A stretch of 64,000 nucleotides of DNA from Acholoe squamosa (taxonomy: Eukaryota; Annelida; Polychaeta; Phyllodocida; Polynoidae). Each line of letters starts with the position of its first letter. The first letter of the stretch is position 1. The stretch spans positions 43,713,250 to 43,777,249 of the forward strand of contig OX439051.1 of assembly GCA_949317995.1 (NCBI GenBank), written 5' to 3'. The translations under genes were made by a program, and so were the position numbers. The notes beneath the pieces were generated by a model. That model was not told the DNA's origin and did no database searches. It saw only the letters and a program-made list of their open reading frames with translations. Of the stretch, positions 18,347 to 60,200 are shown in pieces.

Positions 18347-18353
18347 GGACACC

Positions 18354-30952: not shown

Positions 30953-32177
30953 TATATGGGTCAATCCACTGAAAGTGGGCACTCAGAATTAGATCATGAA
31001 ACTTAATTTTATTGATAGCCCTATATCTTGGCTCTTTGGAAAGATTCATTCAAGTCACTAACTCCCAAGCGGTCAGTTTTTTTTTGCAGATATTCAATAT
31101 TATGAAAATGTAATGGGTATGAGCAAAATGAATTCTTCTCTAAATCACAGAAATATTTGTCAGAACTACATGATTCTCAGTTAGTATATTTGACAAAAGG
31201 TCCCAAAGAAAAACTATGAAGAAAAAAAGCAAAAAAATTATATTGACAATACATAAGGAAATAATATGAATGTAATAGCCATGAGCGTAATGACCATGAG
31301 CAAAACAACTTTTCCAGGCTTCAGACAGCCACTCAGTAATATAACCTCAACCAGCATTGATCTAAATAATGGAAATAGTTTAAGAATACAATAGGATGCA
31401 TTTGGAATGCATCCAGCCTGCCAACATTCTTGCACTGCATTTTAATCACGCCAATTACGCTCATGCCCATTACGCTCATGCCCATTACACTCACGCCCAT
31501 TATATCTTTTAGTTGACCTCTCTGTTTGGCATAACCAACGCATGTAGAGACTCCATTATCTTTTTAAAATGACTTATTAAATATAGATCTTCCTGTTAGG
31601 CTGGTTGAAAGAAAGAAAACTTTGATAGTATTTGTCCTGGATGCAGAAATATGAATGTAATGGGCGTGAGCAAATTGGACTTGAAAATACTTGAATATGT
31701 ATTGCATAGTCATGCCTGCAAGTAGACCCTAAGCTTCTGTACCAGTAACACCCCTATGAGAACCCTAATCTTGGTGGGAAATAAGAAGATTGAGGATAGT
31801 GTTTTAGTAGGCATACCAGTGTACTTTTATTTTGATCACGTTTGGTTAGAAAAATGAACAGGGGAAAAAGAATGCCAACCAGAGCACCTCCAAACTATCA
31901 GTCTGTTGCTGTTTGGCTTGATGGTATAGAGCCTGGAGTGAGGTGGAAATTGAAAAAAGGCAATTTTTGGCAATTTTTCAACTTTGGGCCACTATATCTG
32001 AAGAAATAGCAGGCCGACATACATAAGTTTGCCCTTCTTTTGAAGCCCAAGGTGTTTTCTTTCAAATGAAACAAGAAATAAGAAGATTTGTTAAATACTT
32101 TTTATTCTATAACTCCCTGTATCCAAAAAAGACCAAAAAACACCCAGGTGCCCACTTTCAGTCGACTGACCCATATA
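30953..32177. mobile_element. 1.2-kb terminal-inverted-repeat element
   Basis: The left end TATATGGGTCAATCCACTGA, continuing AAGTGGGCAC (30953-30982), is complementary to the right end GTGCCCACTTTCAGTCGACT, continuing GACCCATATA (32148-32177), with about three mismatches. The outermost TA on each side would fit a TA target duplication, as in Tc1/mariner-like elements, but this is weak. Inside, GTAATGGGCATGAGC-like motifs occur in both orientations. No transposase ORF is visible, so it is non-autonomous. Confidence 0.75.
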
Positions 32178-34949: not shown

Positions 34950-35121
34950 CTGTGGTAACAATGCCATATGTAATAGGTGCTAGACATGGCATGTGGTGCA
35001 AACTAATAGCTTTGTGCAATAACATATGTAATAGGTGCTAGACATGGCATGTGGTGCAAACTAATAGCTTTGTGCAATGACATATGTAATAGGTACTAGA
35101 CATGGCATGTGGTGCAAACTA
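34950..35121 (+). repeat. 58-bp tandem repeat, three copies
   Basis: Unit ATATGTAATAGGTGCTAGAC, ATGGCATGTGGTGCAAACTA, ATAGCTTTGTGCAAT-AC. The corresponding place in U3 (near 53330) has a single diverged copy (ATGTGTAATGGGTGCTATAT), so the expansion happened in U1. It grades directly into the 50-bp array, sharing the AGCTTTGTGCA piece. Confidence 0.9.
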
Positions 35122-35776
35122 ATAGCTTTGTGCACATGAACTGCTTTACAGTATCTATCTTTGTTACAGTAAGAGCGTTGTGCACATGAACTGCCTTTCA
35201 GTATCTAGCTTTGTTACAGTAAGAGCTTTGTGCACATGAACTGCTTTACAGTATCTAGCTTTGTTACAGTAAGAGCTTTGAGCACATGAACCGCTTTACA
35301 GTATCTAGCTTTGTTACAGTAAGAGCTTTGTGCACATGAACTGCTTTACAGTATCTATCTTTGTTACAGTAAGAGCGTTGTGCACATGAACTGCCTTTCA
35401 GTATCTAGCTTTGTTACAGTAAGAGCTTTGTGCACATGAACTGCTTTACAGTATCTATCTTTGTTACAGTAAGAGCTTTGTGCACATGAACTGCCTTTCA
35501 GTATCTAGCTTTGTTACAGTAAGAGCTTTGTGCACATGAACTGCTTTACAGTATCTAGCTTTGTTACAGTAAGAGCTTTGTGCACATGAATTGCTTTACA
35601 GTATCTAGCTTTGTTACAGTAAGAGCTTTGTGCACATGAACTGCTTTACAGTATCTATCTTTGTTACAGTAAGAGCGTTGTGCACATGAACTGCCTTTCA
35701 GTATCTAGCTTTGTTACAGTAAGAGCTTTGTGCACATGAACTGCTTTACAGTATCTAGCTTTGTTACAGTAAGAGT
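35122..35776 (+). repeat. 50-bp minisatellite, about 13 copies
   Basis: Unit GAGCTTTGTGCACATGAACT, GCTTTACAGTATCTAGCTTT, GTTACAGTAA. A variant with GAGCGTTG and CTGCCTTTCA recurs at 35171, 35371 and 35671, so blocks of several units have been copied together. Confidence 0.95.
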
Positions 35777-37771
35777 CAGTAGAGCTGTTATGGCATCCAG
35801 CAAAACAAAGTCATTCAACTCAGTTGGCATTTTTTCTCTCTAGAATATTAATCACTGAGCATTTATTCATAATTACCATTGCGATTCCTGCATTATTTAC
35901 AGCCAATCTTCCACGCACAGTATAAATTCCATGCTATTCAATGCAGAGCTGGATTCAGGTACTCATTCAGCGCCCCTTAACAGGACACCGCACTCAGCAC
36001 CTATCCCTGCATGTCACTCCCCTATTACCTGAATCTGCCCCCTCCTGCCTTGTGACATGGTTCCAGTATTTCCCACCAGGGTACTCTCTGTGTCTCCTAG
36101 TCCCCTTGGTGCAATTCATGCCCCTTTTGTTGCCATGACCACCTGCCATGGGAAACAAATAGGCAGGCATCAGTCATAAGTGACCTTGTGTCTCCTTCCC
36201 TCTGCGTGTGGGTGCGTTTGGCATCGGGTGACTAGATTATTCTGACTTTCTGTCTCTCTGGTGCCATATCGTATACCCACGATCAAATGAAAAACAAGAT
36301 GCAGGGGTGTAAAGGCATTTATGTAAAATGACAGATAGATGAAGAAGTAAATGATGAAAACAGATCAACAACAATCCAGGGGCTTAGGAAGCGAAAGAAC
36401 TTAGGGAGTGGGCAGGGGCCTCAGTTGGGGGCACTGACCTTTTATATGGGCTTATATGGGGTACCCTCCCACTATTGCTGCTTCCCCCTCCCTACCTTTT
36501 ATCTACGCCCCTGACATCATGGGTCTTGTTTGTATCACTGGATACTGCCTCACCTGTACAAGACCACCTTTATCTGACATATGATTACTTGTCTCACACA
36601 CATAGGGATCCAATCCATCAGGTTAAACCCATACCCTGTCAGTATGACTGTGTCATTGTCATCCGCCATCTGCCGGTCTTTATCTGGTCAGGTTCCATTT
36701 GTCAGTCAGATCTCCTTATCCCTATAAGTAGAAGTCTTTGTGATACAGGACCTGAGGTAGGGATGCGTGTGACAAGATGATTCATCAGGACCTGATCTTG
36801 ATATTAAACAGGCCTTAAATTCCACCCACATACTGGAAATCTGGTGTTGCTCATTGTAATGCATCGGGCAGGTGTCCATTTGATTGACACTTAGAGAGCC
36901 TATGATTTGTTTTGCATTACACCTTTCTGTGTTAGGAATAGAATCTGACTATATTGATAAATGGTTGGGTACTTCAAATGAAGAATATCTTACCAAGTCA
37001 ATATCCAGCTCATTTATACCAATACTAATATACCCATCTCAAAGATATATTTGTAAATATGCATACAGTGTTCCTTACAGTAATTAGTTTCCCTCATATA
37101 TACCCATCATTAGGACAATAGGGTATTTTGATTACCCACCCACATATGGTAGTAGGGCCCTGTTAAAGTTGATATAAGAAAGGTAAAACTAGGAACTCAG
37201 CCTCTCTGTGTAGGTGCCAGAAGCACGGAAGCTCCTCGGGGAATGCGCTCGTACCCCTTAGATGTGGCACAGGCACAGGGTATTCTCTAAGGTATAGATT
37301 GTATGCATCTGCCTGCTAACCTATCAATCAGGCAATCTTCCCTTTGAGTTACCCTATACTTAAAATGTAAACCTTTTAGCCATGTTCACCCTGGCACATT
37401 ACCTTATGTTGGAGACTTTTATCTAAAACAGTTTTGTTTTTGGTCAAGATGAAGCAGATTGCCTGCAGCTGTCCAGTATCAACTACATGCCATTAATGAT
37501 ATCGGATGTATTTTTCTTAAAGTCAGCCACAAGGAATTGTTGTAAGAGTATGATAATTGTTCTGCAAAATAATCAAATTTGAGTTCTCCCATATTGTCAT
37601 GGTTAAATCTTCTTTATACAGAAGAAGCAGTTTCTGATTGAATTGATAAAGCAGTAATAACACTTACTTCAACATTTGATGTGATCTAATGACATAATTT
37701 CTCCATACTTAGTCTCATCATGAAATACTTTTCTGACAATTTCTAATTGTGTTTCTACTTTATCTTTGCAG

Positions 37772-37820
37772 GTAAGCTGATGTTGTCTTCATATGGAGAA
37801 GTCACTAGGTAAAGAAACTG
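37772..37820 (+). other. Exon-like island conserved between U1 and U2
   Basis: The preceding TTTCTACTTTATCTTTGCAG looks like a 3' splice site and the following GTGAGT is a strong donor, giving a 49-nt putative exon that contains an ATG at 37793 opening MEKSLGKET across the donor. From TATGGAGAAG onward, 38 consecutive bases are identical to U2 (48085-48131 plus donor), while flanking sequence differs at roughly one base in eight. GCAG|GTAAGC could alternatively itself be a donor. Either a short real exon (coding or lncRNA) or a remnant of a duplicated gene. Confidence 0.35.
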
Positions 37821-37870
37821 GTGAGTTTATATATACATTAGTCTTGAAACAAATAAACCCATGGGATAAC

Positions 37871-37926
<56 letters not shown>
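37871..37926. repeat. (AT)n microsatellite
   Basis: About 28 uninterrupted AT dinucleotides. They are absent at the paralogous place in U2 (48180), which has only ATAGATATC. Confidence 0.98.
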
Positions 37927-37928
<2 letters not shown>

Positions 37929-37953
37929 CATAAGTAGGACAGCGCATCACACA

Positions 37954-38045
37954 CTGTTCTATATATGTGACATGTACTGCAAGAAGGGGTCTTAGTTCCC
38001 CTGCTCTAAGCCCCCTTTTCGCAGATCGTGTCACATATGTAGAAC
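37954..38045. repeat. Imperfect palindrome with about 40-bp arms
   Basis: GTTCTATATATGTGACATGT at the left pairs with TCACATATGTAGAAC at the right, and the inner CTGCAAGAAGGGGTCTTAG pairs with CTAAGCCCCCTTTTCGCAG. The short ORFs on the two strands (both MT-A-RGL-like) are mirror products of this palindrome and not genes. Confidence 0.8.
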
Positions 38046-38599
38046 ATATTCACCAAAATCCTTTACTTAATAGTCTAGACTCTGACCATGAAGTAGAATA
38101 TGAAGGGTACTCAGGAGGGATTCATGACAATACTGCTACTGTCAGTCCACCACAAGGGTTTTAAAGTAGAGTGCCTCTTATTCTGAAAATCAGTAGTAGC
38201 TGACCTGATTTGTATCCTGCTGTATGCACTACAGCGGTATTTATAGCCCATTTGCAATTGTAGCTGAGAGTGTAAGATTCTTTTTATTCCTTATTGGGGG
38301 GGGGGGGGTCATAGCTAAGATTTCCATATGGTTTGGGTGGGTCCTGAGGCACAATTTATCTTCTATATGCATTCAAACATGAATTTTACACAATGAGGCG
38401 TGAGTGATTTTTTTTTTCAAAGTGACCATCCAGGCCCTTACAAAAGAGCACAATTTTTCTTATTATATACAATCAAGAGGTACCCTAGGGGGGGTAACCT
38501 CCATAGAAATTGTTTGATGTACTTCGAGAATTACCCAAGCCAGGAAAATAATAGTGATTTTCAATGCACACCAAATTCACTCACGCTTCAGAGTCTTTT

Positions 38600-39085
38600 A
38601 CTGGCCAGTAAAAGATGGGCCTTATGTGTGTATAAATGACTCTAGATAGGTAGTAAAACCTCTTTATTAGTTGTCTGAGTGTTCTTATTGCTATATGATG
38701 TATAATGAGCTGTGGGAATTCTCATAAAGGTCGATAGAACGTGAAGCATCAGTGAAGCATGTAGGGTTTTTGGATGGTTGAAGGTAAAGTGTTATGATGT
38801 CAACCTATCATCTTGGTGTATGGTGTTTCTATTATTTCTATTTCACCATAGACATGTTTGAGTTATTGAAAAAGAGTTTTTTTTTGTACATCAAAATATA
38901 TTTCTGTACAACATGGCATACACACATTGCGAGAAGTGTAGAAATTTTGAATTTTTCTTGTTCAAAGCATTAGTAATCAGTCAAGATGGGCCGTATGTGT
39001 ATAAATATAAATGACTCTAGACAGGTAGTATTACCTCTTAATTCATTGTTTATGCAACCCCATTGGTATATGATCATACGGTAAA
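38600..39085 (+). repeat. Short direct repeat pair
   Basis: A block with AGATGGGCCTTATGTGTGTA, TAAATGACTCTAGATAGGTA and ACCTCTT (from about 38600) recurs from about 38977 in slightly altered form. It lies just upstream of the polymerase relic and may mark an element boundary. Confidence 0.7.
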
Positions 39086-39233
39086 ACCATATGCAACAAG
39101 CAAAACTTTGTTCAAACAAAGTATGTGTCCCCCTCTAAGGCAAGACGATTAGCCTTGCACTGGTCAGTTCAAGATACACAAGACTTAAGTGACAACACGG
39201 TAGAACTTTCTTGTTTACCCACCTCCATCACCT

Positions 39234-39864
39234 ACGACCTTCCAGTTCAAATAGTTCCAATATGCCAACCTTAAAATGTTGGCATTCTATAAGGACTTTC
39301 TCCTTGAATACATAGACGAAAAAGACTTTGAAATGTGTGAAATGGACACTGACAGATTCTACTTTGCTTTGAGTGCAGAGAATCTAGAAGATGTGATTAT
39401 TCCTGAAAAACGTGAGGCTTTCTTTAGAGAACATCACAAACGGTTGCCCTCTGAATCTTGTGAAAATTCTCACCACAGAGAAACCTACATTCAAACCAAA
39501 GCATTGGGTAACTTATGGTTACCTCAGCCCTGCTGCCAGAGCTGTCTGGTGTTTGATAAAAGAACCCCCGGATTGTTCAAAGAGGAGTGGGAAGGGGATG
39601 AAATGACCACCTTGAACTCCAAATGTTACATAGGCACTGGCAAAAAAGTGCCCTTTAAACTAAGTTGTAATTCAAAAACAAAACAACTTAATGACTGAAA
39701 AGCTGGACAGTGAGAATGTTGTCATGGTAGTTAACAAAGGATTTAAAGTAGTTAACCACAGCGTTACTACCTACTCTAAAAAAAAAAAACAAGGGTGAAG
39801 TTATCAGTATATAAAAAGAAGGGTGTGTGAAGATGGAGTAAGCACCTCACCCCTCTCTATTTAA
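39234..39864 (+). pseudogene. 3' fragment of a family-B DNA polymerase (Polinton/virus type), broken
   Basis: The main open piece (39276-39698) carries the polymerase active-site region: a YxDF-like helix, then MDTD followed by R instead of the usual S, an FYFAL strand, then DKRTPGLFKEEWEGDEM and a late SK-Y segment. This arrangement is typical of protein-primed PolB in Polintons/Mavericks, adintoviruses and bidnaviruses. Family-like codons continue upstream of 39276 but meet an in-frame TAG (39252-39254). Downstream the reading frame shifts near 39690, and family-like sequence (NKGFK, TTYS, IKRRV, DG-ST-PL) continues to a TAA at 39862-39864 that fits the usual C-terminus. Both breaks and the D-T-D-R change argue for an inactive remnant. 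The N-terminal exonuclease and most of the palm are absent. Confidence 0.75.
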
Positions 39865-40340
39865 ACAATGGCTTTTGCTTGTGTTTGTCTCCCTCTAGTT
39901 TTCTTTTTCTCACTTTACTTAAAGTTATACATTTTAAAATAAAAAAGTTGGTTTTTTCTAAACATTTTGTTCATTTTTTTGAAAAAAAAATTTCAATAAA
40001 AACAAACATTTTGTGTAAAAAAACATGTGTTAAAGTATCATATGGTGCAACAAAAATGAACATTTTATACACAAAAAAAAATGAACATTATCAAAAAATT
40101 TATAAACATTTTACAAAGTTAACGCAAAAGTGAACGTTATCACCCAAAAAAAAACAAAAAAAAAACTATTCAAAAAAGTGAAAACTATACAAGTTCACAA
40201 CAAAAAATAAAAATCTGGCGCTAAAGAAAACATTTTGGGTGTATTTGACAAAAAAACTAGTAGGTTTATTCTTTGCGTCAACTTCACCAGATAACTGGTT
40301 GTAACAGTTCATATCTGGTTAGATTAAGTCATCATTTAAG
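39865..40340. other. Extremely AT-rich, A-run-laden intergenic stretch
   Basis: Contains many runs of 5 to 11 A and repeated AACATTTT / TGAACATT motifs, with only rare G/C. A TATATAAAAAG motif lies just before, at 39810-39820. Composition is unlike anything else in the window and matches spacers between genes of AT-rich DNA viruses. It could hold the promoter of the downstream ORF. Confidence 0.6.
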
Positions 40341-41213
40341 ATGGAAAGTTTAGAGGCAATGATAGTAGAACAAAGCACAGAAACTCCACCTTATGAATAT
40401 TACATGCGGCCAGCTCTACAAAGTGTTGCTCTGTACAGCAAAGCTTCTGCTGTAACACCTGACAATGATGTTATTGCTATTGCATGTAGATGTTCAGAAA
40501 AAACCTTTTGGGAAGTAATACCTGCAGAAAACATTTGTTATTTTAGAGGACCTGAACCAGACACTGTTGACCACTGTTTAACTAGTGTTAAAATGTACAA
40601 ATATTTCTCTTCAGCCTTTTGGGACGCGTACAGGAACTGCATGCACTATTGTCGAGTGAAAAGTGTAAACTTAATAACGCAAGATTGGTGCATCGGTGTA
40701 TACCAGTTACACACTGAACCTAGCTGTCCTAGGCACTACACAAGGTACACTTTAAGAAGTGTGAAAAGATTTGCTGTTACCATGCAGCAGTTAGGGTGTA
40801 ATCCCATTGTAGGGGTGTTTTGCCAGTGTAATTGTAAAATACAAGTATCTGCTATAGCTAAAACCATTTGTTTCACATGTCTACAGGTCACGTTGGAGCT
40901 TCACGCCTTAAGTATACCTGGAGTGAAAAATCATTTCTCGTTTGAGGTAAACTTCAAGGATGGTTTTACATCTAGTCTTTTATTAGGACCTAAAAACAAC
41001 GAAACTTACTTCCTGGCACAGGCTTTGTTTGAACATGCTATAGCTAACATAGCTAAACTGAACAGTTTTTGTTTCCACAACACGTGGAAAACTAGTCTCA
41101 CAGGTCAAAGCTGGTGTCAAGCAAGTGAATTTACACACAACAAATGCTTCTGTTGTATCTGTGCACATCCCGGTAATGGAAATGAACAGGTTGTGTTATA
41201 TTTTAAAATATGA
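40341..41213 (+). CDS. Intact cysteine-rich ORF of unknown family, 290 aa
   Basis: The longest intact ORF in the window that is not explained by repeats, starting at an ATG in AAG-ATGG context and ending in TGA at 41211-41213. The protein is not recognised. It has roughly twenty cysteines, including GVFCQCNCKIQ (about residues 158-168), ICFTCLQ (about 175-181) and KCFCCICAHP near the C-terminus, which could be zinc-binding pairs. There is no signal peptide and no clear membrane segment. It lies 476 bp downstream of the broken DNA polymerase on the same strand, across an AT-rich spacer, so it is probably a gene of the same integrated virus or Polinton-like element. An uninterrupted 290-codon frame next to a broken polymerase suggests either recent integration or selection. 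A viral accessory or capsid-related role would be a guess. Confidence 0.55.
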   Translation: MESLEAMIVEQSTETPPYEYYMRPALQSVALYSKASAVTPDNDVIAIACRCSEKTFWEVIPAENICYFRGPEPDTVDHCLTSVKMYKYFSSAFWDAYRNCMHYCRVKSVNLITQDWCIGVYQLHTEPSCPRHYTRYTLRSVKRFAVTMQQLGCNPIVGVFCQCNCKIQVSAIAKTICFTCLQVTLELHALSIPGVKNHFSFEVNFKDGFTSSLLLGPKNNETYFLAQALFEHAIANIAKLNSFCFHNTWKTSLTGQSWCQASEFTHNKCFCCICAHPGNGNEQVVLYFKI

Positions 41214-41333
41214 AATAAACAGAGAGAACTGCACAACCATGGGTAACCAAATGTGGCCTTTGTTCCCCTCAGACTGTGTCCTCGGGGACCCCATTTGGTG
41301 CCCACGGTTGTGCAATTCTCTCTGTTTATTTCA
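41211..41333. repeat. Long hairpin overlapping the ORF stop
   Basis: The left arm TGAAATAAACAGAGAGAACT then GCACAACCATGGG (from 41211) pairs with the right arm CCCACGGTTGTGCAATTCTC then TCTGTTTATTTCA (ending 41333), with about five mismatches over 43 bp. The left arm begins exactly at the TGA stop of the upstream ORF. Inner TCCCC and GGGGA can pair as well. It may be a terminal inverted repeat or hairpin of the element, or an inserted MITE. Confidence 0.85.
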
Positions 41334-41460
41334 TCAGTCATTATTGTGCAATTTCTAAGTAATGTTTCATCAGCAATTGCACAATACCCATTTGCTATTT
41401 CGTCATGGTTATTGTGCAATTCTATAAACCATGGCACAATACCTGTTCATACGTAGCTCA
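41334..41460. repeat. Secondary inverted repeats with TTGTGCAATT core
   Basis: ATTATTGTGCAATTTC (about 41340) and GCAATTGCACAATA (about 41377) are complementary, and TTATTGTGCAATTCTATA with ATGGCACAATACC follows. The TTGTGCAA word is shared with the hairpin upstream, so the two structures are probably parts of one palindromic element. Confidence 0.65.
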
Positions 41461-41740
41461 TACGTTTTCATGAGGTCACTTCCAGTTTGTAACTAGGTCA
41501 AACCAAAGTATTGCGTAATATATGTAATTTATGTAACTAGGTCATGACATATATTCCAGCTCTCTGATTGGTTGAAAAAACTAGGTTGTGACCTTGTGAT
41601 GTCACTTCCTGTCAAATCCATGCTTCTGATTGGTTAAAATGGGTCAAATGGGGTCACTTCTGTTCTGCAAGTGGGTCATGACCTAGTTAGTAGCTGAAGC
41701 TATGCGCTGAGTTTGCATGCATATACTACTTCTAGTGTTC
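41461..41740. other. Non-coding sequence with AGGTCA-rich direct motifs
   Basis: GAGGTCACTTCC, TAGGTCAAACC, TAGGTCATGACA, GGGTCACTTCTG and GGGTCATGACCTAG recur within 200 bp. AGGTCA is the half-site bound by many nuclear receptors, but here the repetition is more likely simple sequence derivation. Confidence 0.35.
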
Positions 41741-41744
41741 ATTG

Positions 41745-42105
41745 TGTAATGGTTTGTATTACCAGTTCGGTGGTTCGGGCCTTAGGGATTATGGAAAAAA
41801 GAGTAAGGCGGTAATTCAAGTGTATGCCAACGGATTTTATTGATAGGACACTTAGCGGCTTCCCGGAAGGTGGTGATGGGGCAGCTAATATTAATGGATA
41901 TCTAGTTCTATATGCCTGGAGGGCCTCTGACGTAGCGGCTGAGCCCCGGTCTTTATATATGGATCTTGGTGTTTGTTGCCAGATGTCCCCACAGGCCCGG
42001 ATCGGTGCTGCCACCTATCCGGAACCTGAGGAACACCCAGCGACTGGACTCACCCTCCACGCCAGACGGTACTCGTACATATTGTTATAATGTAATACCT
42101 CTACA
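41745..42105 (+). mobile_element. Solo LTR, copy 1, with 4-bp target duplication ATTG
   Basis: Starts TGTAATGG and ends ACCTCTACA, flanked by ATTG on both sides (41741-41744, 42106-42109). An internal TTTATATATGG is a plausible promoter. It is homologous along its length to 49922-50297 (shared blocks GTGTATGCCAACGGAT, GGGCCTCTGACGTAG, CAGATGTCCCCACAG and CGGATCGGTGCTGCCACCTA). The U2 paralogue at about 50500-50530 (GTGTTCATTACAAAGGGATT) is the uninserted site. TG...CA ends and a 4-bp duplication suit Ty3/Gypsy- or BEL-type LTRs. No internal retrotransposon genes remain. Confidence 0.85.
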
Positions 42106-42782
42106 ATTGCAAAGGAATTTTTATGCTGATTTAAGTTGGAACCTGAAATCTTAATCTGAATAGGAACAAAGCTGCATATTTAACCAAAGTCATCATTTTA
42201 GAAGGAAAATTGAAGGAGAATCATCTTTATTTAGCCATTGACCTTAAATAGTGATTTTGAATAGATTTGTAGTGACTATTAATGATAACATGGATATTTG
42301 TAGTGTAGTGGATGCAGTGGAGCTATATCAATTATCCATCACTGTCATGCAAAAATGAAAAGCTGATGTTTAAATCCCACAGCAGGCACCAAACACTGGT
42401 GGTGTAATTGGTTTAAATCACTTAATGTGGTTATGGGGATTTTAAGCTGTGATTTATGATGTGTGTGGTCTTATCTTTTTCATAACTTCAAATGGCATTG
42501 CCTACCATTTATTTGAACTTCTTATTTTGAATCTTGCTGTAGATGACACATGTCAATTAACACTCAGTGTTATAAAATACAATATTGGACTGTTCTAGCA
42601 CTCATGTGTTAACATATTTCAGCCTCTGATTTAGCCTGCATTTATACGAGGTCTGCACTTACATTAAGTATAAAAACAGGTGAATCTTGAATTTTAAAGC
42701 CCTGCACTAAAATGGGCCACTACGGTAGGTGCTCACTAGAAATACCATTAGTGAAATTTATTCATCACTAAGATAATATTTA

Positions 42783-42838
<56 letters not shown>
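42783..42838. repeat. (TA)n microsatellite
   Basis: About 27 TA dinucleotides, uninterrupted, at the distal end of U1. Confidence 0.98.
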
Positions 42839-42841
<3 letters not shown>

Positions 42842-43009
42842 GGTTCCCAAGAACTCCTTTTCAGGCTATACCAAAGTGCTGTAGACCCAGACCACCTTAT
42901 TCCTCCTTATACCACGATTTGTGGGTTACACAGTGCTTTTTGGGGTCTATTCCCATCCACATATCTGTCGATATTGCACACCCTATAGGCTGTAACATCA
43001 ATCTTGGAA

Positions 43010-43082
43010 GGCGTGCGGTTATCCAGGTAAGGCGTGCGGTTATCCAGGTAAGGCGTGCGGTTATCCAGGATAACCGCACGCC
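43010..43082 (+). repeat. Three 21-bp repeats ending in a perfect palindrome
   Basis: GGCGTGCGGTTATCCAGGTA plus A is repeated, and the third copy runs into its own complement (GGCGTGCGGTTATCC, one base, GGATAACCGCACGCC at 43052-43082). The inverted copy at the array edge could reflect fold-back during expansion. CACATGT repeats follow at 43087-43110. Confidence 0.9.
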
Positions 43083-43135
43083 TCTCCCATGTCACATGTC
43101 ACATGTCACATATTAAAACCCACGAAATTTTCCAG

Positions 43136-43207
43136 GCCAGGGCAGGGCTCGAACCTACAGCCTCAGATCCCTAATCCAACTCCCTATGCATTGCGCCACA
43201 GGGACTG
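43136..43207 (-). repeat. tRNA-derived element head (SINE-like), minus strand
   Basis: On the minus strand an A-box-like TGGCGCAATGCATAGGG and a B-box GGTTCGAGCCC stand about 27 bases apart, as in tRNA genes. The cloverleaf is imperfect and no 3' processing site was verified, so it is called a tRNA-derived repeat and not a functional tRNA. Confidence 0.65.
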
Positions 43208-43252
43208 ACGAGAGAAGCTTGGTTAGAACCAAGTCTGGATATGATACAAAGC

Positions 43253-43480
43253 TGTGTGCGCTGTCGCTGTCCGCTGCCGGGCGAGGAGGTGTATTATACA
43301 CAAACATAACTGCGAGAAGAGGAGACGCGGTGGTCTAGCGGTTAGCACGTCGCGCTCAGCCGTGAGGGGTCCGCGGATCGAATCCCGGCCGAGACACATC
43401 TTTTTTCGCCGTGTGCGCTGCCGCTGTCCGCTGCCGGGAGAGGAGGTGTATGTACCGATCGTGTACACACAATGGCTGGC
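43253..43480 (+). repeat. tRNA-derived element (Glu-like A box) between direct repeats
   Basis: GGTGGTCTAGCGGTTAGCAC (A box region, 43329-43348) and GGATCGAATCCC (B box, 43374-43385) give a tRNA-Glu-like promoter pair. A GTGTGCGCTG-CGCTGTCCGCTGCCGGG block lies on both sides (43253 and 43412), so the tRNA-like part is bracketed by duplicated GC-rich sequence. Probably a SINE or a composite of two. Confidence 0.7.
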
Positions 43481-43577
43481 ATCGAGTCCCGGGGAGGGGG
43501 AATAATTTTTGTTTTCAACTTGAATTTATTGGTATAATATTGATTATTTATTGGTTTCGTGGTATAAAATAAGTAGA

Positions 43578-43685
43578 CAATGGATAACTGATGACTCGTG
43601 GGTGTTATCGACGATAATAACACTCGGCCTACGGCCTCGTGTCATTATTCGTCGATAACCCCCACTCGTCATCAGTTATCCATTG
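43578..43685. repeat. 108-bp imperfect palindrome
   Basis: CAATGGATAACTGATGACTC, GTGGGTGTTATCGACGATAA and CACTCGGCC read outward from a central TACGGCCTCGTG to GTCATCAGTTATCCATTG on the other side. CpG-rich loop. Likely a MITE or fold-back sequence. It lies at the U1/U2 junction region. Confidence 0.9.
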
Positions 43686-46600
43686 GTTACTTGTTCATCA
43701 GTGGGCCTGGTGCTCAGAGTGGCTGGTGATAGCGTCCAGTGTGTAAGTTAGGCAGTCAGACAGTAGGGAGTCAGCATTGTGTGTGAAGAGGCACTGAGGG
43801 CACGGTCTCCCACTGGCTGATGCTAAGGTGCCGGGTGCCAGCATGGGGTGCCAACTGTCAAAGATCTCGTGTGTTATGAGTAAGGTCCCATGCTGTAGCT
43901 ATAGCTTACCTGTCTGTCTTGGACTAGACAAGTTCAAAGTTGAAAGTGACAGAAGCATTTGTTTAATATTGATTCCATTATATGCCACAATATGATCCGT
44001 CAAAGTGCTAACACTGTTGTTGTTTGTTAAGGCTCTAAAGGTGTCAAAATACACCAGAGAACATCAAGAAACATTCATACGAATATTGCTATAACACGGG
44101 CCATCTTTTTGGGTAGAGGTATAACAACAAGTGATACGTGAGATGTAAAATTCCAATTCAGACTTGATCTATTGAAAGTTTGAGGTTTTCATGGACTAAG
44201 CAACATGGGTCGGAATATATGGCAATGGACAAAGGAAGTGGAGTCTCTCCACTATGGTGAGTTCAGAGAGCAGACATTGCCTACTATAAATTCAATCCTC
44301 CCTTCACCTGTTGAGGCCTCACTAAAAGCAGAATACTCCTTGGGGGCTCGCCCTCCTTCAGTGTCCAGGCCACCCAACTTACAACCATCTCCATCACTTA
44401 AAAGGGGAGGGCCTAAAGCCTCTGGTGAAGTCCCTGGAAACATGCTGGTCTTACTAATTGGATCATGATATAGAACTTGTAGCGTTAAAGATAGATTACC
44501 TTTAATAGTTCCTCTGCTCATGAGCTAAAGTTTGACAAATTATTGGAAATGGGAACATAATTAGAAGTCATTTTGGTCTACTTGTCTGGCCCTTCCCAGA
44601 AAGGGAAAACCATTTTATTGAACAGTTTTTCCTGACAAACGGACATGTTTTATCTTATCTTTCATCTCTGCTCTCTAGGTTTTCTAAAGGAACCAACTCC
44701 TCTGCCCATTCTAACATAATAAGACTTGATATAGTCAGGGTCGATGACAGCATAAACAATATGTTTCACATGATCATGCCATGAGCTATTTATTGGTTTA
44801 TGATATCTAAGAAGTATTTGAATTGCTCTGAAATGTGTGCTATTCATCTGATACACATGATCATAGCTTTAAAGATAGAAAATAAGGGTCAATCACGATG
44901 TGATTTGGTGGATATGTCGGTTAATATAGTCATAATTCAGTTGATATGTGTTTCTCCTATGTATACTTTTTTTATATCAAAAATAACTGGATCAACATCA
45001 GTCAGAATAGAGCAGTGGAACACTACCCCCCCCCCCCTCAAATAGATATACATAGAACTCTTGAAGTTGGATGCATTGTCATATGGGTGAAAATCTGAGA
45101 TGTGCACCAATTGCAAAATAACCGATTTAATGGCATTTATTGCTTACCACGTGGACCAGGAGGGTGTTTCACCACATAACATACGGCCCCCTATGTGACA
45201 TATGGTCCCCACATGTGACATACGGCCCTTTTTCTGTTTCTGTTCAAATTTCCACATCCTAAAATATTGGATGCGGACCTCCACATGTGGATGCAGACTT
45301 TTACCTGTTTCTGTTCAAGATACGGAAATCAGAAATCCCACATCCAGGCCATATAATTTCATTTAAATGTGGAGGGGTAAGGGTGTACCCTGTATGTTAA
45401 AAATGTGAGAATATGGGTTTTTTTTTCTTGTCCGTATGTCAGGAAAAAGTTTATATAGGTACATGGGAGATTTAAGGTGGCTGGGTGGGAGAGGGGTTCG
45501 GGGGTGAAACAATGAACACGGTGCACTTCATAAGATGTAAGGTAGGCATATATTATTCAAATGTACAGCACACTGTTAAACTGGGGCAAGGGTTTTTACA
45601 GTAGATTACTTCTATTTTTGGAAAACAGTATTAGTTGCTGTCAGTACAAATCCAATGCCCAGACATGGGTTGCCCTGTACCCAGTACAGCGGCCTTTATA
45701 GCCCATTTACAATTGGGGCTGGGATAGAGGCCAAACCCCAAGAAATTAGAAGAATAGAATTGAATAGAAGTGACAAATACTCCTACAGTGTATAGGCCTA
45801 AGCACTACCATGAAATCAGCCTGAGCAATTGTTGTATTTTCATGGTAGTGTGCACCTCAGACCTTATGCACGAGGTAATGAAGTATAAGTACAAACCATG
45901 AGCTTTCTGATGGGAACTCTCTCAAAGAAGAGCTCACTCCATTTCCAAATCATTTTGTGTTTAGTCATGCGTATTAATAGGTCATGAAGACTGCTCATCA
46001 CAATCTGTCAGTTCTTTTGTATTGCCAGATTGCTTTGTCTGAGTATGATGTTGTGGAGGCTACAAAAGAGTCATTAAACCCAGTATCCTAAGAAGGTTCC
46101 TGGTGCAGGGCCCAACCACCATCCTTCTGTCATGTAGATCCTATGCATAAGATGCCAACATTAGAATATCCTTATCCCCACACAGCCTGCATTTGAAATA
46201 TTGAGATAGGAATGTAATTAAAACTCTTTATGACCCATATGCCTGAGCTATTAATAATATTTAGATGTAGATGATATCTTATCTTTCATCTCATATCACT
46301 TATAGAAAGCATGAGGGGTAGGTATTAAAAGAAACTCTCTCGAAGAGTTAACTCCATTCCTAAAATCATTTTGCAGTTAGTGCACCACACCTATAAATAG
46401 TTCATGAAGACATATTACTGGAAGAGCAGGGAAATGACGATATAGAAGCAAGGAATCATTTATGAGCACTCAAATGGTACTATTTAAGTATGAAATATCT
46501 TAAGGTCAGAAAATCTCCAATGGCACATACATTATGGTGAGGTCTACAAATGTTGATAATATTATGCCTTACTCTGTTACCCCACGATGAGTGTGCTTAA

Positions 46601-48131: not shown

Positions 48132-48823
48132 GTGAGTTTACATAAGTCACGAGGCGAATAAACACCTGGGATAACAGATAGATATCCCAGAAGTAGGCCA
48201 GTGTGTCTCAAACTCAGAAGACTTCAGACTCGAAATGATTCTGACGTGTAAGATAATTGACTTCTGATTAGCATAGACTTTGTAACATAGGGAAACATCG
48301 AGTATTTACTGTCTTGATATCTACAGAGCCAGCAGCCTTTCAGGGCTTAAATTGATTGGTGTTAGATGTAATTCGTTGTTATCACGGGCCAGACCCCCTT
48401 TTAGGGTTTACATATATGTCATAGATGGAAGTGGAACCCCTCTCAAGAATAGATGACAAAGTCTTCATGGCTGTTTTGTATTCATGGGATATTCAGTGCT
48501 CCATTTTTATCACCAGCTCTACTATGAACGAATTGTTTGTATTTGAAGCATGTTTTCATTAGAATACCACCCTTTTGTAAAATGTGTCATAATTACTTAT
48601 TTGTATAGAGCATGCCTCTAAGCATATGGTTTCTGAATATAAATTTGATATGCAATTCATCTCCTGTACTATATTAAAAAAACTGAATATGTTTGATATT
48701 GTAGAGGAATGTGATTTCCTGTGCCCGGTAGGCTGACCTGCAGGGGCAGGTCCCAGGGCAATCACTTGTCCCCTATTGGTATCATGCCAGTCCAGGCATG
48801 GGTGGAAGGTAGGAAACGTTGTA

Positions 48824-48894
48824 CGGGAAGTAGCTCAGCAGTAGAGCAATTGTCTGAAGGCTGAGAGGTCCCGGGTTCAACTCCCAGTTTCCCT
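48824..48894 (+). tRNA. tRNA-Phe(GAA)-like sequence, probably a pseudogene or SINE head
   Basis: The acceptor strand CGGGAAG pairs with TTTCCCT at six of seven positions, including a G-T pair. The D arm GCTC/GAGC is perfect with a 7-base loop. The anticodon loop CTGAAGG would give anticodon GAA. The T arm has CCGGG-TTCAACT-CCCAG with one mismatch, and both A and B boxes are good. The anticodon stem (ATTGT/CTGAG) barely pairs, so a working tRNA is unlikely. No T-run terminator follows immediately. Confidence 0.5.
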
Positions 48895-49094
48895 AAACGT
48901 TTTCACCGTCCCCTACAATATATAGCAGCCTGCATAGCAATATTCAGTATGATGAAGTCATAGGAAACAGATGTTCCCTTTTAGTACAACCAATAGTATT
49001 TCTTTTGCCAGTATGAATGCCTTGATTGACTGCCAAGTGCAGACACATATCTAGGAAAGATAATTGAAGAACAATGATTATACCACTATTCTGC

Positions 49095-49335
49095 CACCTC
49101 CCTTACTGTTATGCCCTCCTCTACCAGTGCCTTATCAGAGCATACATGACCATGTGCTTTTTGGGATTTTGGATATACTTTTTCAAGGTCAAGTTGGACA
49201 TACAAAGTCAGTCTCGCCATTGTTTCATATTGAAAAATCGTGTCAACTTGTAGGAGAACTGAACCCCGGCCACAGTGGATCTGGGTGGATGCCTTAGCCA
49301 TGACGCCACACTGCGCAGTGGGGAAAACCAAAGCA
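49095..49335 (-). repeat. Dispersed tRNA-like repeat family E, copy 1
   Basis: On the minus strand: GTCATGGCTAAGGCATCCAC (A-box-like), GGCCGGGGTTCAGTTCTCC (B-box-like), then CGATTTTTCA, ATGGCGAGACTGA and AAAGTATATCC blocks. All are matched by 55250-55440 on the plus strand. A tRNA-derived SINE is the best reading. The ORF across it (81 codons) is repeat-derived. Confidence 0.75.
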
Positions 49336-49420
49336 AAGTATATATTTTTGTCAAGATTTCACTCATCGGTCCATCTATGCACCCACATTTAGAGTAGAAT
49401 GGAAGCTTGTCATATCAAGT

Positions 49421-49921
49421 TATTAAAATGTATACATCCTTAGATATCCTAGATGATCCCTCCATGCCAAATGTCTCAGTAATATAATAAAAAAAGAAGA
49501 ATCCAATGATTTTTCCATCGTAAGCGAGTCACAGTCCACCATTCCTCCCCACCTCCTTGCCCGATGAAATGTGTCAGTGGCCCGGATGTGGATATAGGTC
49601 AAGACGCCGCAGTTGAAGAACACGCTGAGAATGTCGGACCGCGACTCGCTTACGAGGGAAAAATCAATGGATTCTTCTTCATTTTGAATATATTGGACAT
49701 ATTAAGCATGGAGGGATCATCTAGACTATTAAGGATGTTTACATTTTAATAACTCAACATAACACGGTTGGTTTCAATACAAAAAAATGGGTGGAAAGTC
49801 AAGCACCCACCGAGAACAACAATGGCTTCGCACAGAGCGAAACAGGGAAGTATCACTGGCACTTATAAAATGTCTTCTGCTGTATTTATTCTGGGGATAT
49901 CAAGTAGGTAATTAATGTTAT
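49421..49921. repeat. Dispersed repeat family B, copy 2, with inverted arms
   Basis: The left arm (49421-49540, TTATTAAAATGTATACATCC onward) and the right arm (about 49636-49751) are inverted copies of each other, both ending at GTAAGCGAGTC/GACTCGCTTAC. Downstream lies the first-exon-like module: ATGGCTTCGCACAGAGCGAA (49819) to CTTCTGCTG, TATTCTGGGGATATCAAGTA. The solo LTR at 49922 is inserted into this module. Confidence 0.75.
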
Positions 49922-50297
49922 TGTAAGGGGTTGTGGCCTTACGGACCTGGGGGTTCGGGTCTTACGATTCGGAAAGAAAGAGTAAGACGGTGTTTCAAGT
50001 GTATGCCAACGGATAGATTTTATTACTAATGCACACTCACAGCTACCCGATAGTATGAAGAGGGTAGCTAATAATTATCAATGGTGTTCTACATGCTTCG
50101 GAGGCCAGAAGGGCCTCTGACGTAGAGGCTGAGCCCTGGGCTTTATATAAGGACCCAGGTGTTCGCCGTCAGATGTCCCCACAGACCCGGATCGGTGCTG
50201 CCACCTATCCGGAACCTGAGGAACATCCGACGACTCAACTCACCCGCCACGTCAGACGGTACCCAACGCTATGGTTTATATGTTATGTACCTCTACA
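49922..50297 (+). mobile_element. Solo LTR, copy 2, with 4-bp target duplication TTAT
   Basis: TGTAAGGGG to ACCTCTACA, flanked by TTAT (49918-49921 and 50298-50301). TTTATATAAGG at about 50143 is a TATA-type promoter. It sits in family B sequence: the ATTAATGTTAT before it and GGAGTAAAAAGG after it align to the continuous AATTAATACAAAATGGAG of the other family B copies. The target differs from copy 1, so the two LTRs inserted independently. Confidence 0.85.
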
Positions 50298-50340
50298 TTA
50301 TTATGGAGTAAAAAGGTGGTATAATCCCAATATGACATAA

Positions 50341-50400
50341 ATATGGGAGCCCACGGTTTGGATATATTCCTCAATATCCAAACCTTGGGCTCCCATATAT
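50341..50400. repeat. 60-bp palindrome
   Basis: ATATGGGAGCCCACGGTTTG, GATAT pairs across ATTCCTCA with ATATCCAAACCTTGGGCTCC, CATAT. About two mismatches. Confidence 0.9.
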
Positions 50401-50664
50401 ATGTTGTGCTGTGTGATATGGGATACAAGATCAATGGAGTAATGGTACTTCTGGTTGCACTCTGCGTTCTTTCCTTGTCTTGCGTTCTTTCCTTGTCTTG
50501 TGTTCATTACAAAGGGATTTTTGATGTTGGTTTTATCTGGAAAAACTCATGAGGAACATGATCTTATCATGGTCCTTATTTTATCAGAAAAATTGTGAAA
50601 TTGGGAGAAAACCATCTTCATTAAGTAATGAACATTGCATAATAATTTTTGAATAGATTGGTAG

Positions 50665-51185: not shown

Positions 51186-52177
51186 TACGGAGCCCCTAAG
51201 AGGACATGCCAAAAAAAATTTTCACCTGAAAAAAATATTCTTGCAGAAACTGAACAATTTCTATAGATACTGGAGTATTCTTGCGGATACTGAACAATTC
51301 TTGCGGGAACTGAGCAATTCTTGCGGGAACTGAGCAATTCTTGCGGGTACTGAACAATTCTTGTGGGTACTGAACAATTCTTGTGGGTACTGGACAATTC
51401 TTGCAGGCACAGGAATAATTTTTGTGGGTACAGGAACTGTTCCTGCGGGTACTGAACAATTCTTGCGGGTACTGAACAATTCTTGCGGCTACTGAACAAT
51501 TCTTGCCGGAACAGGAATAATTTTTGTGAGTACAGAAACTATTCCTGGAGATACAGAAATGCTTTTTGCAGGTACAGAAACATCCTTGCGGTACATGAAA
51601 TAATTCTTGGGGATGTACAAATAATTTTTGTGGGTGTACAAATATTCTTGCATGTGAGAAAGTATCTCTCAAATATTTGGCAACATTTATGTGGGTAATT
51701 CTTCAATTTTAAAGCCTAAAAATGTTAGAATATTACCATTCCCCCAGAAATCTTTCTGTACCCACAGGAATCTTCTTGTAGCCGTTGGAATCTTCCTGTA
51801 CATGCAGGAATGTCCCTGTATCCACAGGAATGTCCCTGTTTCTGCAGGAATGACCCTGTTTCCGCAGAAATGTCCCTGTTTCCGCAGGAATGTTCCTGTC
51901 CCCGCAGGAATATGTTTTGCACGAAAAAGAATCTTTTGGGTATGTCCTATTAGGGGCTTTGTAGGGCTCCGTAGTAAGCATTCCTGGACTAGTACCTGCA
52001 GGAATCATCCTTTACTTGCATGAATCCCCCAGTACCCGCATGAATCCCCCAGTACCTGCAGGAATCCCCCAGTACCCGCAGGAATCCCCCAGTATCCGCA
52101 GGAATCCTCCAGTACCCACAGGAATATTTTTTGCATGAAAAAAACTTTTTTTGGTATGTCCTATTAGGGGCTCCGTA
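51186..52177. mobile_element. Foldback element: inverted minisatellite arms with 6-bp target duplication
   Basis: The left terminus TACGGAGCCCCTAAGAGGAC then ATGCCAAAAAA is complementary to the right terminus, GGTATGTCCTATTAGGGGCT then CCGTA. The left arm is mostly about twenty 20-bp units (ATTCTTGCGGGTACTGAACA). The right arm contains the same motif inverted (CCAGTACCCGCAGGAATCC, and CCTGTTTCCGCAGGAATGTC). A second internal terminus lies at about 51935-51975. CAAAGG flanks both ends (51180-51185 and 52178-52183). The paralogous U2 sequence (44230-44235) has a single CAAAGG and no insertion. This architecture is that of foldback elements such as Drosophila FB or sea urchin TU. There is no transposase, and ORFs here are repeat artefacts. 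Confidence 0.85.
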
Positions 52178-54305: not shown

Positions 54306-54427
54306 GCTAATAGATCATGGATATTGGAGCCCTAGGGCCTTACATGCTGGATATACCCGAGCCGCGTAGCGGCGAGGGTATATCCAGCATGTAAGGCCCG
54401 TGGGCTCCAATATCCATGACCTAATAG
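54306..54427. repeat. 122-bp near-perfect palindrome
   Basis: From CTAATAGATCATGGATATTG through GAGCCC, GGGCCTTACATGCTGGATAT and ACCC to a central GAGCCGCGTAGCGGCGA, then the full complement back to CAATATCCATGACCTAATAG. Only a few mismatches. It lies immediately beside family B sequence and may be part of it. Confidence 0.95.
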
Positions 54428-54439
54428 GTTTATACCACG

Positions 54440-55160
54440 ATTTCCTCCATTTTGTATTAATTTCTTACCTGATATCCACAGAATATAGCCAGGAGAAGAT
54501 ATTTTGCAAGTGCAAGCAATACTGCCCGTGGCCGCTCTGCGCGAAGCCATTGTTTTTGTTCCTTGCCGAGAGATGAACCTCCGTGTTCACACTCACTTTT
54601 CGTATGGAATCCAACCATGACAAATCGAGAAATTAACAGGTTCATATCCTTAGACAGTCTAGATGATTCCTCCATACGTATTATGTCCAATATATTCAAA
54701 ATAAAGGAGAACCCATTGATTTTTCCATCGTAAGCGAGTCGCAGTCCGGCCATTCCCACCCGCCTCCTTGTCCGGCAAAAGTGTGTCAGTGGCCCGGATG
54801 TAGATATAGGTCATCTGCTCATCATACGAGGAAGACGCCGAAAATTTCGCACCGGTTTGGAAAATCAATGGATTCTTATTTATTTTGAATATATCGGACA
54901 TATCAAGCATGGAGTATTCATCTAGAATGTCTAAGGATATGTATGTTTTAATTTGAAGACTTGTCATGGTTGGATTCCATACGAAAAGTGAGTGTGAACA
55001 CGGCGGTACCTCTCCCGACAAGGAACAAAAACAATGGCTTCCCACAGGGCGAACCGGGCCGCGACTCGCTTACGATGGAAAAATCAATGGATTTTTATTT
55101 ATATCGAAGAAAATGGAGAAAATTAGCACGCATTCCTCTTCTATGGATCGAAAACTTCTT
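54440..55160. repeat. Dispersed repeat family B, copy 3, with long inverted arms
   Basis: The left arm about 54546-54752 and right arm about 54855-55047 are inverted copies (GCCATTGTTTTTGTTCCTTG versus CAAGGAACAAAAACAATGGC, TGGATTCCATACGAAAAGTG on the right). On the minus strand the first-exon-like module reads ATGGCTTCGCGCAGAGCGGC ... CTTCTCCTGG ... ATATCAGGTAAGAAATTAAT (54550 down to 54455). Another partial module follows to the right (55060-55160). The several ORFs here are repeat-derived. Confidence 0.75.
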
Positions 55161-55934: not shown

Positions 55935-57165
55935 CAAGTGGAATCTTACTTATGTATATCTTTCTACTATCTGTACTAGGTATTAGAGATCACTGCTAGG
56001 TATCAGTAATACTACACTATCTGTACTAAGTATTAGAGATCACTGCTAGGTATCAGTAATACTATACTATCTCTACTAGGTATTAGAGATCACTGCTAGG
56101 TATCAGTAAAACAACACTATCTGTACTAGGTATTAGAGATCACTGCTAGGTATCAGTAATACAACACTATCTGTACTAGGTATTAGAGATCACTGCTAGG
56201 TATCAGTAATACTATACTATCTCTACTAGGTATTAGAGATAACTGCTAGGTATCAGTAATACAACACTATCTGTACTAAGTATTAGAGATCACTGCTAGG
56301 TATCAGTAATACTATACTATCTCTACTAGGTATTAGAGATTACTGCTAGGTATCAGTAATACAACACTATCTGTACTAAGTATTAGAGATCACTGCTAGG
56401 TATCAGTCATACTTTACTATCTCTACTAGGTATTAGAGATCACTGCTAGGTATCAGTAATACAACACTATCTGTACTAGGTATTAGAGATCACTGCTAGG
56501 TATCAGTAATACAACACTATCTGTACTAAGTATTAGAGATCACTGCTAGGTATCAGTAATACAACACTATCTGTACTAAGTATTAGAGATCACTGCTAGG
56601 TATCAGTAATACTACACTATCTGTACTAAGTATTAGAGATCACTGCTAGGTATCAGTAATACTATACTATCTCTACTAGGTATTAGAGATTACTGCTAGA
56701 TATCAGTAATACAACACTATCTGTACTAAGTATTAGAGATCACTGCTAGGTATCAGTAATACAACACTATCTGTACTAAGTATTAGAGATCACTGCTAGG
56801 TATCAGTAATACAACACTATCTGTACTAGGTATTAGAGATCACTGCTAGGTATCAGTAATACTATACTATCTGTACTAGGTATTAGAGATCACTGCTAGG
56901 TATCAGTAATACTATACTATCTGTACTAAGTATTAGAGATCACTGCTAGGTATCAGTAATACAACACTATCTGTACTAAGTATTAGAGATCACTGCTAGG
57001 TATCAGTAATACTATACTATCTCTACTAGGTATTAGAGATCACTGCTAGGTATCAGTAATACTATACTATCTCTACTAGGTATTAGAGATTACTGCTAGG
57101 TATCAGTAATACAACACTATCTGTACTAAGTATTAGAGATCACTGCTAGGTATCAGTAAGCTGGC
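55935..57165 (+). repeat. 50-bp minisatellite, about 24 copies
   Basis: Unit TATTAGAGATCACTGCTAGG, TATCAGTAATAC(A/T)A(C/T)ACTA, TCTGTACTAGG. Variants (CTGTACTAAG versus CTCTACTAGG, ACAACAC versus ACTATAC) are arranged in recurring combinations, suggesting block duplication. Same period as the U1 array at 35122 but unrelated sequence. Confidence 0.95.
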
Positions 57166-58983
57166 CTTAAGAGTACATTGATAACACATGTTCAGGTTAT
57201 GTCCTTTAAAGGCCCAAGTTTAGTTAAGGAAGTAACAGTTAATATGGCGGAGTTATGAATCGTGCAGCAGTTGGTTGCACTCAATATCTCTGTCAGCACC
57301 CCCTGTAGCTTATTTAGTTCGAAACCAGCCAGAGCTGGAATGTATCCCTGGTCACTACAAAAGGATTTCTAGACAGCCATCATAGAGTTGGACAATGTAC
57401 AAGTTACTGTATTACTACCGCTTCCCTGATTCAAGACCAAAATATCTTAAGGTCACATTACTCATATACACTGGCACAACTCTTATGGTTATGTCTACAG
57501 AATGCCTTACCCTATTACCCCACAGTATGTGTGCTTAACTGCATTGTCAGCAGTCAGTTCATTTAGAGCAAAATCTACAATAACAAACTTAGCTAAGAAA
57601 CACCTATGATTCTCCCTGTATGTGCCTTATTACCTGGAAGCAGCTAATTGACAGTGAACGACATTCACTGTGACAGACGCCTCTATCTGCTATACAGACT
57701 AAGTGCTTATATCAGTACTTGGGGAGGAGGGCCTTGGAATACACTTCAAAGACTAAAAGAGCAGCCCTTGAATAAGCACCTGTCTTGTATAACTACCAGG
57801 CATTAAAACCTCGAAGTGTTAGCCTCCTTATTATGTCTGCATTGATACAGTAACTACTTTCTTACCTCAACCAAATAAAATTATTATTGTCTCTGTAGCT
57901 ATCATTGGTATTGGATACCCACCTATTGGGCATTTTGATACTGAGGCTCCCTACTGCCAGAAATCTACAAACCCACACCTTTATCTTGATTGATTGATTG
58001 CCTCTCACTCAAGAGCCAACAAACATGCCTTCCTTATCTGGCAATAAATGAGCTGCATCCTACAAGAAGGGGTCCAATCCATCAGGTTAAACCTGTACCC
58101 TGTCAGTATGACTGTGTTGTTGCCACTCTCTATCTGCCTGCCATTGTATGGGTGATCACCATCTGCCAGTCAGATGTCCTTATCCCTATAACTAGATCTC
58201 TCAGCCATAAACAATCTGACAGTGGGACGTTTGAGACAAGATGATTCATCGGGACTCAAGCAAAATTTCAAATGGTTCCTAAGCACCACACCCAGGAAAC
58301 CTGCCTTTGGCTATTGTAGATTGAATTGCATATTCTGTTTTAGGCCACTAAGTATTACCTAGAACACAACCTTTATGGCAAACTGGGATTGAACCTACAT
58401 TGGGATTTGGAATGAGCTGAATTACCCTTGCATTCTATGGCCTCAATAACGCCCATAAAAAGCATCAGAGAAAAACACAGAGATCTTGGAGGTCTAGAAT
58501 GCATAGTGGGCTTTCACCCTTGTATTATATCAGATCAGTCACAATTCTTTTGCATTCATTTGATTTGTGTTAACACTACCTATCTTGAATTTACATTTAC
58601 CGTTTTATATATACAGCTGGATATTTAGAAATGGAGAGCTTACCAATGTTGATATCTCCCACGCACCCATATCCTTCTTATTTGATTGTTATCATACTTT
58701 CCTTATATATTATCAAATAAAACAGTTACTCACCCACCTAGTAGAGCCCCATTTACTTAAAAAAGCATGGAAGCCCCTCAGTGAATAGGCTCTTACCTCT
58801 CAGATGTGGTACAGGCACGGGCGAGTCCCTAAATTATAGAATGCACAGGTGAGATACTTTGTAGCTTGGTCATGGAATATAAAGGAAATTCATTGTTAGA
58901 CACCATACATTTGCTGCAACTTTAGACTTCAGAAGACATGAGACAATAGAGCAACTAACAAAATAACTCAGATTTATATTATA

Positions 58984-59615: not shown

Positions 59616-59619
59616 TATA

Positions 59620-60198
59620 ATAATAAAGGAACCTTGAATACCCCATTGACATATCCCCACATTCCTATTCGATTCTACGCGAATGCAAAAGGTAGAGAAC
59701 AAGTTTTTATAATCGTCATTGGTACATTCAAGGTTTGGCCAAACTTCATAAGGTGACTCAAACTCAGTGAACGTTGTGTATACTTGGCTTGATACCGGTA
59801 TAAATATCCTAACTTACATTCATGAATCATCAACTGTGTGTATAGATCTACTTCTAAGAACAATAACATCCTCAATGGTGAGGCAGGTTTCGTTGGAAAG
59901 ACACATACAAAAATATAGTCGAGCCCACGAGGTTGTGGTCACAGTCTCTACTATGTACTGATTGCTATAAAAATCTTAAAGATACATGCAAATCAAGAAA
60001 ATACACATGGATGAGAAATACTTCGAAAATCCTGGTGGCAACAGTGATACTGGTTGCTACATCCTGCCTTCAGCGATCAGGGCAGAAACAGCTGTGATAC
60101 TCTGTCACATTTACCGGTTACTGAATGAGATCAAGTGTACATGGTTAACAATTTTTATATAAAAATACATGCTTCAGAAATATATCCTCTACATAGTC
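59620..60198. other. Non-coding sequence
   Basis: Nothing recognised, though it contains a partial relative of the next block: CTGCCTTCAGCGATCAGGGC (about 60066) resembles CTGCCTTGGGTAATCAGGGC at 60240. Confidence 0.45.
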
Positions 60199-60200
60199 GG

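Follow-up and report, generated by a model that had tools for sequence, protein, structure and literature searches.

The locus

The window, by which is meant the whole 64,000-nucleotide stretch of Acholoe squamosa DNA analysed here, contains the decayed C-terminal end of a type-B DNA polymerase (PolB), followed by an AT-rich spacer, an open reading frame (ORF) for a cysteine-rich protein and a foldback structure. The features are as follows.

39062..39253, + strand: PolB remnant in frame 2, from the palm region (SYGK) to 'LPVQI', with an internal stop at 39071 (tblastn)
39231..39695, + strand: PolB remnant in frame 3, with CEMDTD-R and KRTPGLFKEE and a stop at 39252 (tblastn, alignment of relatives)
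39667..39864, + strand: PolB remnant in frame 1, the C-terminal end, with an internal stop at 39796 and TAA at 39862 (tblastn)
39865..40340, no strand: AT-rich spacer, 74.8% AT (composition)
40341..41213, + strand: 290-codon ORF of an unnamed cysteine-rich family, with the second CxxC of its C-terminal zinc ribbon lost (profile search, alignment)
41182..41450, no strand: possible outer extent of a foldback element, overlapping the last ORF codons (15-nt outer arms)
41210..41334, no strand: inner hairpin with 41-nt arms (inverted-repeat search, folding)
41308..41421, no strand: cluster of the window's 4 exact TTGTGCAATT copies, 3 direct and 1 inverted
18523-18592, 19051-19110, 31267-31493, 43571-43692, 49494-49679, 50335-50404, 54307-54427 and 54533-55051: eight other strong foldbacks, the longest arms being 191 nt

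The polymerase remnant

A broken PolB C-terminal region had been predicted at 39234-39864 from the letters of the window; it is real, and tblastn with PolB relatives extends it to 39062-39864. About the last 270 codons survive, from the palm region to the C-terminus, and they are spread over three successive frames (2, 3 and 1), with two frame changes and three internal stops (39071, 39252 and 39796) in 0.8 kb. The TAA at 39862 is at the position of the natural C-terminus. The frame-2 piece is matched by residues 2-66 of the PolB of contig L003 (joint E value with the other pieces 1e-35) and by residues 1137-1200 of that of contig L002, both of which are described below, and the frame-1 piece has tblastn matches from the relatives P0005 and P0007, from L002 PolB residues 1368-1409 and from L003 PolB residues 236-277. 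Within the frame-3 piece there is an open frame of 140 amino acids, 39276-39698, for which 42 relatives were found at E<=1 among 44 candidates, the best at 4.1e-52. The open piece departs only once from the residues that are at least 90% conserved among 23 aligned relatives: the Ser of CEMDTDS, which is part of the family-B polymerase catalytic motif and is present in 23 of 23, is Arg in the relic (DTDS to DTDR). Otherwise its preservation is like that of its closest kin, as it keeps 55 of the 64 positions invariant in P0004, P0005 and P0006 (86%), for which the values themselves range from 85 to 93%.

A 45-row tree, made from all 42 relatives plus L002, L003 and the window, unites the window sequence with P0004, P0005 and P0006; support for the group is 100/100 and its stem measures 1.02 changes per column. 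The window PolB thus shares a clade that is well supported and long-stemmed with three unnamed relatives, and adds a divergent lineage to the Polinton/adintovirus fossil record.

The original prediction proposed a check against the PF03175 (DNA_pol_B_2) profile and took the lack of a PolB profile hit as refuting. This outcome did arise for PF03175, which is matched at E<=1 neither by the open piece nor by any of the 24 aligned members, these being the window plus 23 of those 42 relatives. The extent of the model accounts for this. The related L002 PolB, which is open over 1409 amino acids, does match PF03175 above its cut-off (E 2.9e-9), and the best stretch there is residues 1123-1215, corresponding to positions 365-461 of the 468 in the model. 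By tblastn the relic corresponds to about residues 1137-1409 of the same protein, mostly past the model, with the open piece beginning at about the counterpart of residue 1212. Since the model ends near where the surviving open piece starts, the missing match is no evidence against a PolB; this is one case where a PolB relic escapes a screen relying on PF03175 only, what survives of it being C-terminal to the model. Searches of Pfam and NCBIfam with the PolB piece and with its 24 aligned members turned up no significant family, and the piece on its own had no significant PHROGs match. Weak matches to phrog_1907, 'DNA polymerase', were obtained with 5 of the 24 members (best 0.0023) and with the longer relatives P0029 and P0012 (E 0.012 and 0.021; profile positions 464-567 of 629). 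A PDB search with the family profile yielded nothing significant, hhalign of that profile against the phi29 polymerase no credible match (probability 0.6%), and tblastn of P0029 against phages a single match at E 2. No relative came out of protein-based scans of IMG/VR. Searching GTDB contigs with the PolB family found L002 and L003.

Relationship to Polintons and adintoviruses

L002 (1-11769) and L003 (1-3607) come from a metagenome-assembled genome (MAG) whose label is that of an Escarpia laminata (tubeworm) endosymbiont, and are probably animal (host) or viral contamination of the bacterial bin. Both have a PolB. L002 also has an integrase (rve at 3.5e-13 together with a chromodomain at 3.2e-8), a P-loop ATPase of packaging type that narrowly exceeds the cut-offs for adenovirus IVa2 (8.5e-5) and for PF00910 RNA_helicase (2.4e-4), and a protease-like ORF that matches the adenovirus endoprotease PF00770 at 7.7e-4, below the cut-off. 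Judged by its alignment to the L002 PolB, itself beside an rve-chromodomain integrase and a packaging-type ATPase, the PolB relic is of the Polinton/adintovirus class. The original description of the locus as what is left of a Polinton-like element or an integrated DNA virus is supported, by the 42 relatives and the L002 PolB, for its PolB part; the hairpin as a terminus has no such support.

Adintoviruses are described, in the account drawn on here, as combining a PolB that carries an N-terminal OTU-like domain, a hexon-class capsid protein (Hexon) and an integrase of rve type with a C-terminal chromodomain (PMC11071296). A PolB of this type is represented in the window by its C-terminal part, through homology to the adintovirus/Polinton-like L002; the homology detected reaches no further back than the counterpart of residue 1137, and the N-terminus, the site of the OTU-like domain, is absent. 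When eight other L002 ORFs, among them the ATPase and the protease-like ORF, were compared with the 64 kb by tblastn, none gave a hit at E<=0.01. They include the integrase, the absence of which is expected as the relic is a fragment, and the putative capsid (ORF 9187-10500, a guessed hexon with no Pfam match). With only the PolB part present, 'fragment of a Polinton/adintovirus-class element' is a justified name and 'adintovirus' is not. The gene order is also unlike that of L002, where the next ORF of at least 80 codons on the same strand after PolB encodes the ATPase, whereas in the relic the gene next to PolB is the cysteine-rich ORF. Polintons (Mavericks) end in terminal inverted repeats flanked by a target-site duplication. 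No viral terminal repeats were identified at the relic: among the 25 longest of 166 inverted pairs in 36000-46000, those that bracket it are runs of AT dinucleotides.

The cysteine-rich ORF

Downstream of the PolB stop the predicted AT-rich spacer is borne out, the 74.8% AT of 39865-40340 comparing with 59.1% in the window. The ORF that follows, 0.5 kb downstream of PolB and on the same strand, had been called an intact 290-codon ORF. It is open and belongs to a real family, though it is not fully intact since half of its terminal zinc ribbon is gone. A single search gave three relatives (1.9e-73), and a profile search gave eight at E<=1 among 1853 candidates; the profile was built from three of the eight, and the five absent from it were recovered at 3e-120 to 2e-79. 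With eight relatives, at 35-47% identity over the alignment, the ORF is not due to chance. Near the C-terminus all eight have a CxxC-x11-CxxC zinc ribbon, of which the window copy keeps the first pair and lacks the second CxxC. In the first 40 residues acidic amino acids (4-8) outnumber basic ones (1-3) in every one of the eight relatives. The combination of an acidic N-terminus and a zinc ribbon suggests a nucleic-acid-binding regulator, and the family, unnamed and conserved, is flagged here as a candidate viral regulator.

Matches to characterized proteins did not come to light. Pfam gave nothing significant for nine members of the family (best 0.039), nor did a PDB search with the family profile (best 0.15). 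AlphaFold models of two members have mean pLDDT values of 33.9 and 39.8, and a Foldseek search of BFVD and PDB with the latter had no hits at E<=0.001. GTDB contigs contained no relative of the family, and literature searches, none of them aimed specifically at it, turned up nothing recognisable as this family. The LxCxE motif of small DNA tumour virus oncoproteins is present in 1 of the 9 sequences.

That 290 codons have stayed free of stops beside a PolB with two frame changes and three internal stops in 0.8 kb would fit domestication, the host having kept the ORF as a functional gene while PolB decayed. This is nevertheless very improbable. Apart from the loss of half the zinc ribbon, the ORF keeps in a leave-one-out comparison 56 of the 70 positions that are invariant in the other eight sequences (12 are changed and 2 gapped), below seven of the eight relatives, which keep 93-100% of their ungapped positions, although the remaining one, P0050, is as low at 81%. 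The open PolB piece is within the range of its three closest relatives, so that the ORF, while open, is by residue no better preserved than PolB, which speaks against domestication.

The foldback

The arms of the inner hairpin, 41210-41250 and 41294-41334, are 41 nt long and 88% complementary. Folded as DNA, 41190-41460 has a z score of -10.8, and none of 200 shuffles is as stable. Further out, 41182-41196 and 41436-41450 are 87% complementary; when the flanks were shuffled 300 times, such a pair arose in 3. The long hairpin of the original prediction, 3' of the ORF, is therefore real and stable; it is not unusual here, being one of nine strong foldbacks (arms of at least 25 nt, at least 85% complementary, loop up to 200) in the 64 kb, compared with none in each of five mononucleotide shuffles. 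TTGTGCAATT has 4 exact copies in the window, where about 0.4 are expected, and all are within 41308-41421.

Two origins can be weighed for this structure. It could be native to the virus, as one of its parts or as its end, with a linear layout like that of bidnaviruses or parvoviruses in which PolB and an accessory ORF are followed by a hairpin terminus with TTGTGCAATT repeats. The order of the three features, the start of the inner hairpin where the ORF ends and the strength of the fold are what such a layout would give, and a viral origin could also show an array like that of TTGTGCAATT. Six ORF relatives have alignments to the window that end nearby, two at 41180 and four at 41195, the latter reaching 14 bases inside the supposed outer arm; this fits a viral end and tells against a host repeat. 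Yet the left outer arm coincides, within about 14 bases, with the loss of resemblance between the ORF and its relatives, the missing second CxxC falls near the edge of the foldback at 41182-41450, and the outer arms extend into the ORF. Strong foldbacks are, moreover, common in the window. Bidnaviruses have a Polinton-type PolB and a zinc-finger accessory protein, NS3, that may be comparable to the cysteine-rich ORF product; the hairpin is unlike their ends, as the terminal repeats are stated not to form parvovirus-type hairpins (PMC4061559). A viral end thus appears unlikely, and the prediction of the hairpin as a terminal viral feature finds no support, given the loss at that point of the conserved end of the ORF and the frequency of strong foldbacks nearby.

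With nine strong foldbacks in 64 kb, the hairpin is more likely a host-type foldback repeat than the end of a virus. It resembles foldback or MITE-like repeats in being one of these nine; it differs from them in sharing no detected sequence with the others (no match of at least 150 bases at E<=1e-10), in carrying TTGTGCAATT and in having no target-site duplication discernible by eye. A scan of IMG/VR for the pattern of the hairpin arms found none. L002 and L003 have no foldback at a 14-nt arm limit, a weak control as the two total 15 kb, a strict complexity filter was applied and their ends may be missing. Just past the hairpin, at 41470-41690, short repeats of AACTAGGTCATGAC type, both direct and inverted, form another cluster.

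Origin of the relic

It seems likely that a DNA virus of the Polinton/adintovirus class once integrated at this locus and left a dead fragment, comprising the end of PolB and a cysteine-rich accessory gene, and that the hairpin is a separate, host-type foldback. What is observed is the homology, the frames and stops, the lost Ser of DTDS and the lost half of the zinc ribbon. The relic is probably an endogenous viral fossil, and the neighbouring ORF, a real family, may well be of viral origin too. On this reading a single virus would have left both the last ~270 codons of its PolB and most of the accessory gene. Polinton/adintovirus-class PolBs function in protein-primed replication, and in the intact virus the enzyme would have copied a linear genome in this way. 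The cysteine-rich protein, with its acidic N-terminus, conserved cysteines and zinc ribbon, would most likely have been a nucleic-acid-binding regulator of early transcription or replication. The accessory gene would then have had a host-type foldback inserted into, or attached to, its 3′ end, with the removal of half of the zinc ribbon.

The common origin of the two genes has its own alternative, namely that PolB and the cysteine-rich ORF are independent insertions that came to be side by side. The pairing is known from this single locus, tblastn reveals no relative of the ORF in L002 or L003, and the sizes of the longest contigs listed for the PolB and ORF families do not coincide, in a search that leaves out full-length PolBs. 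Set against this, the two are on the same strand, and the natural stop of PolB is 0.5 kb upstream of the ORF, as for neighbours in one genome; two insertions are distinctly unlikely. The zinc-ribbon family could quite possibly, though short of probably, be an undescribed accessory gene, a regulator, beside PolB in animal viruses of the distinct Polinton/adintovirus PolB lineage formed by the window and P0004-P0006.

The segmental duplication and other features of the window

The relic is within U1, one of the units (U1, U2 and U3) of a segmental duplication, and had been predicted to have no counterpart in U2 and U3. For U2 none was indeed detected, but the gap in the alignment has other boundaries than the relic: the match between U1 and U2 breaks off at 37880/48185 and resumes at 41769/49949, and no alignment was detected between the 3.9 kb of U1 37880-41769 and the 1.8 kb of U2 48185-49949. 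Because this unaligned part far exceeds the relic in length, U2 offers no clean empty site. U3 (58200-62000) has no match to any part of U1 37500-42200 and so says nothing about the relic.

Within 60198-62695 there are duplicated segments, 60198-60616 and 61837-62257 being 98.8% identical and 61392-61839 and 62248-62695 100%; these are either a very recent duplication or an assembly artefact. Tandem arrays are present at 55966-57159 (50-base units), 35120-35775 (50), 17761-18352 (53) and 51277-51506 (20). The sequence at 48824-48895 matches an Rfam tRNA model at 35 bits and is not called by ARAGORN; it is possibly a tRNA pseudogene or a tRNA-derived SINE.
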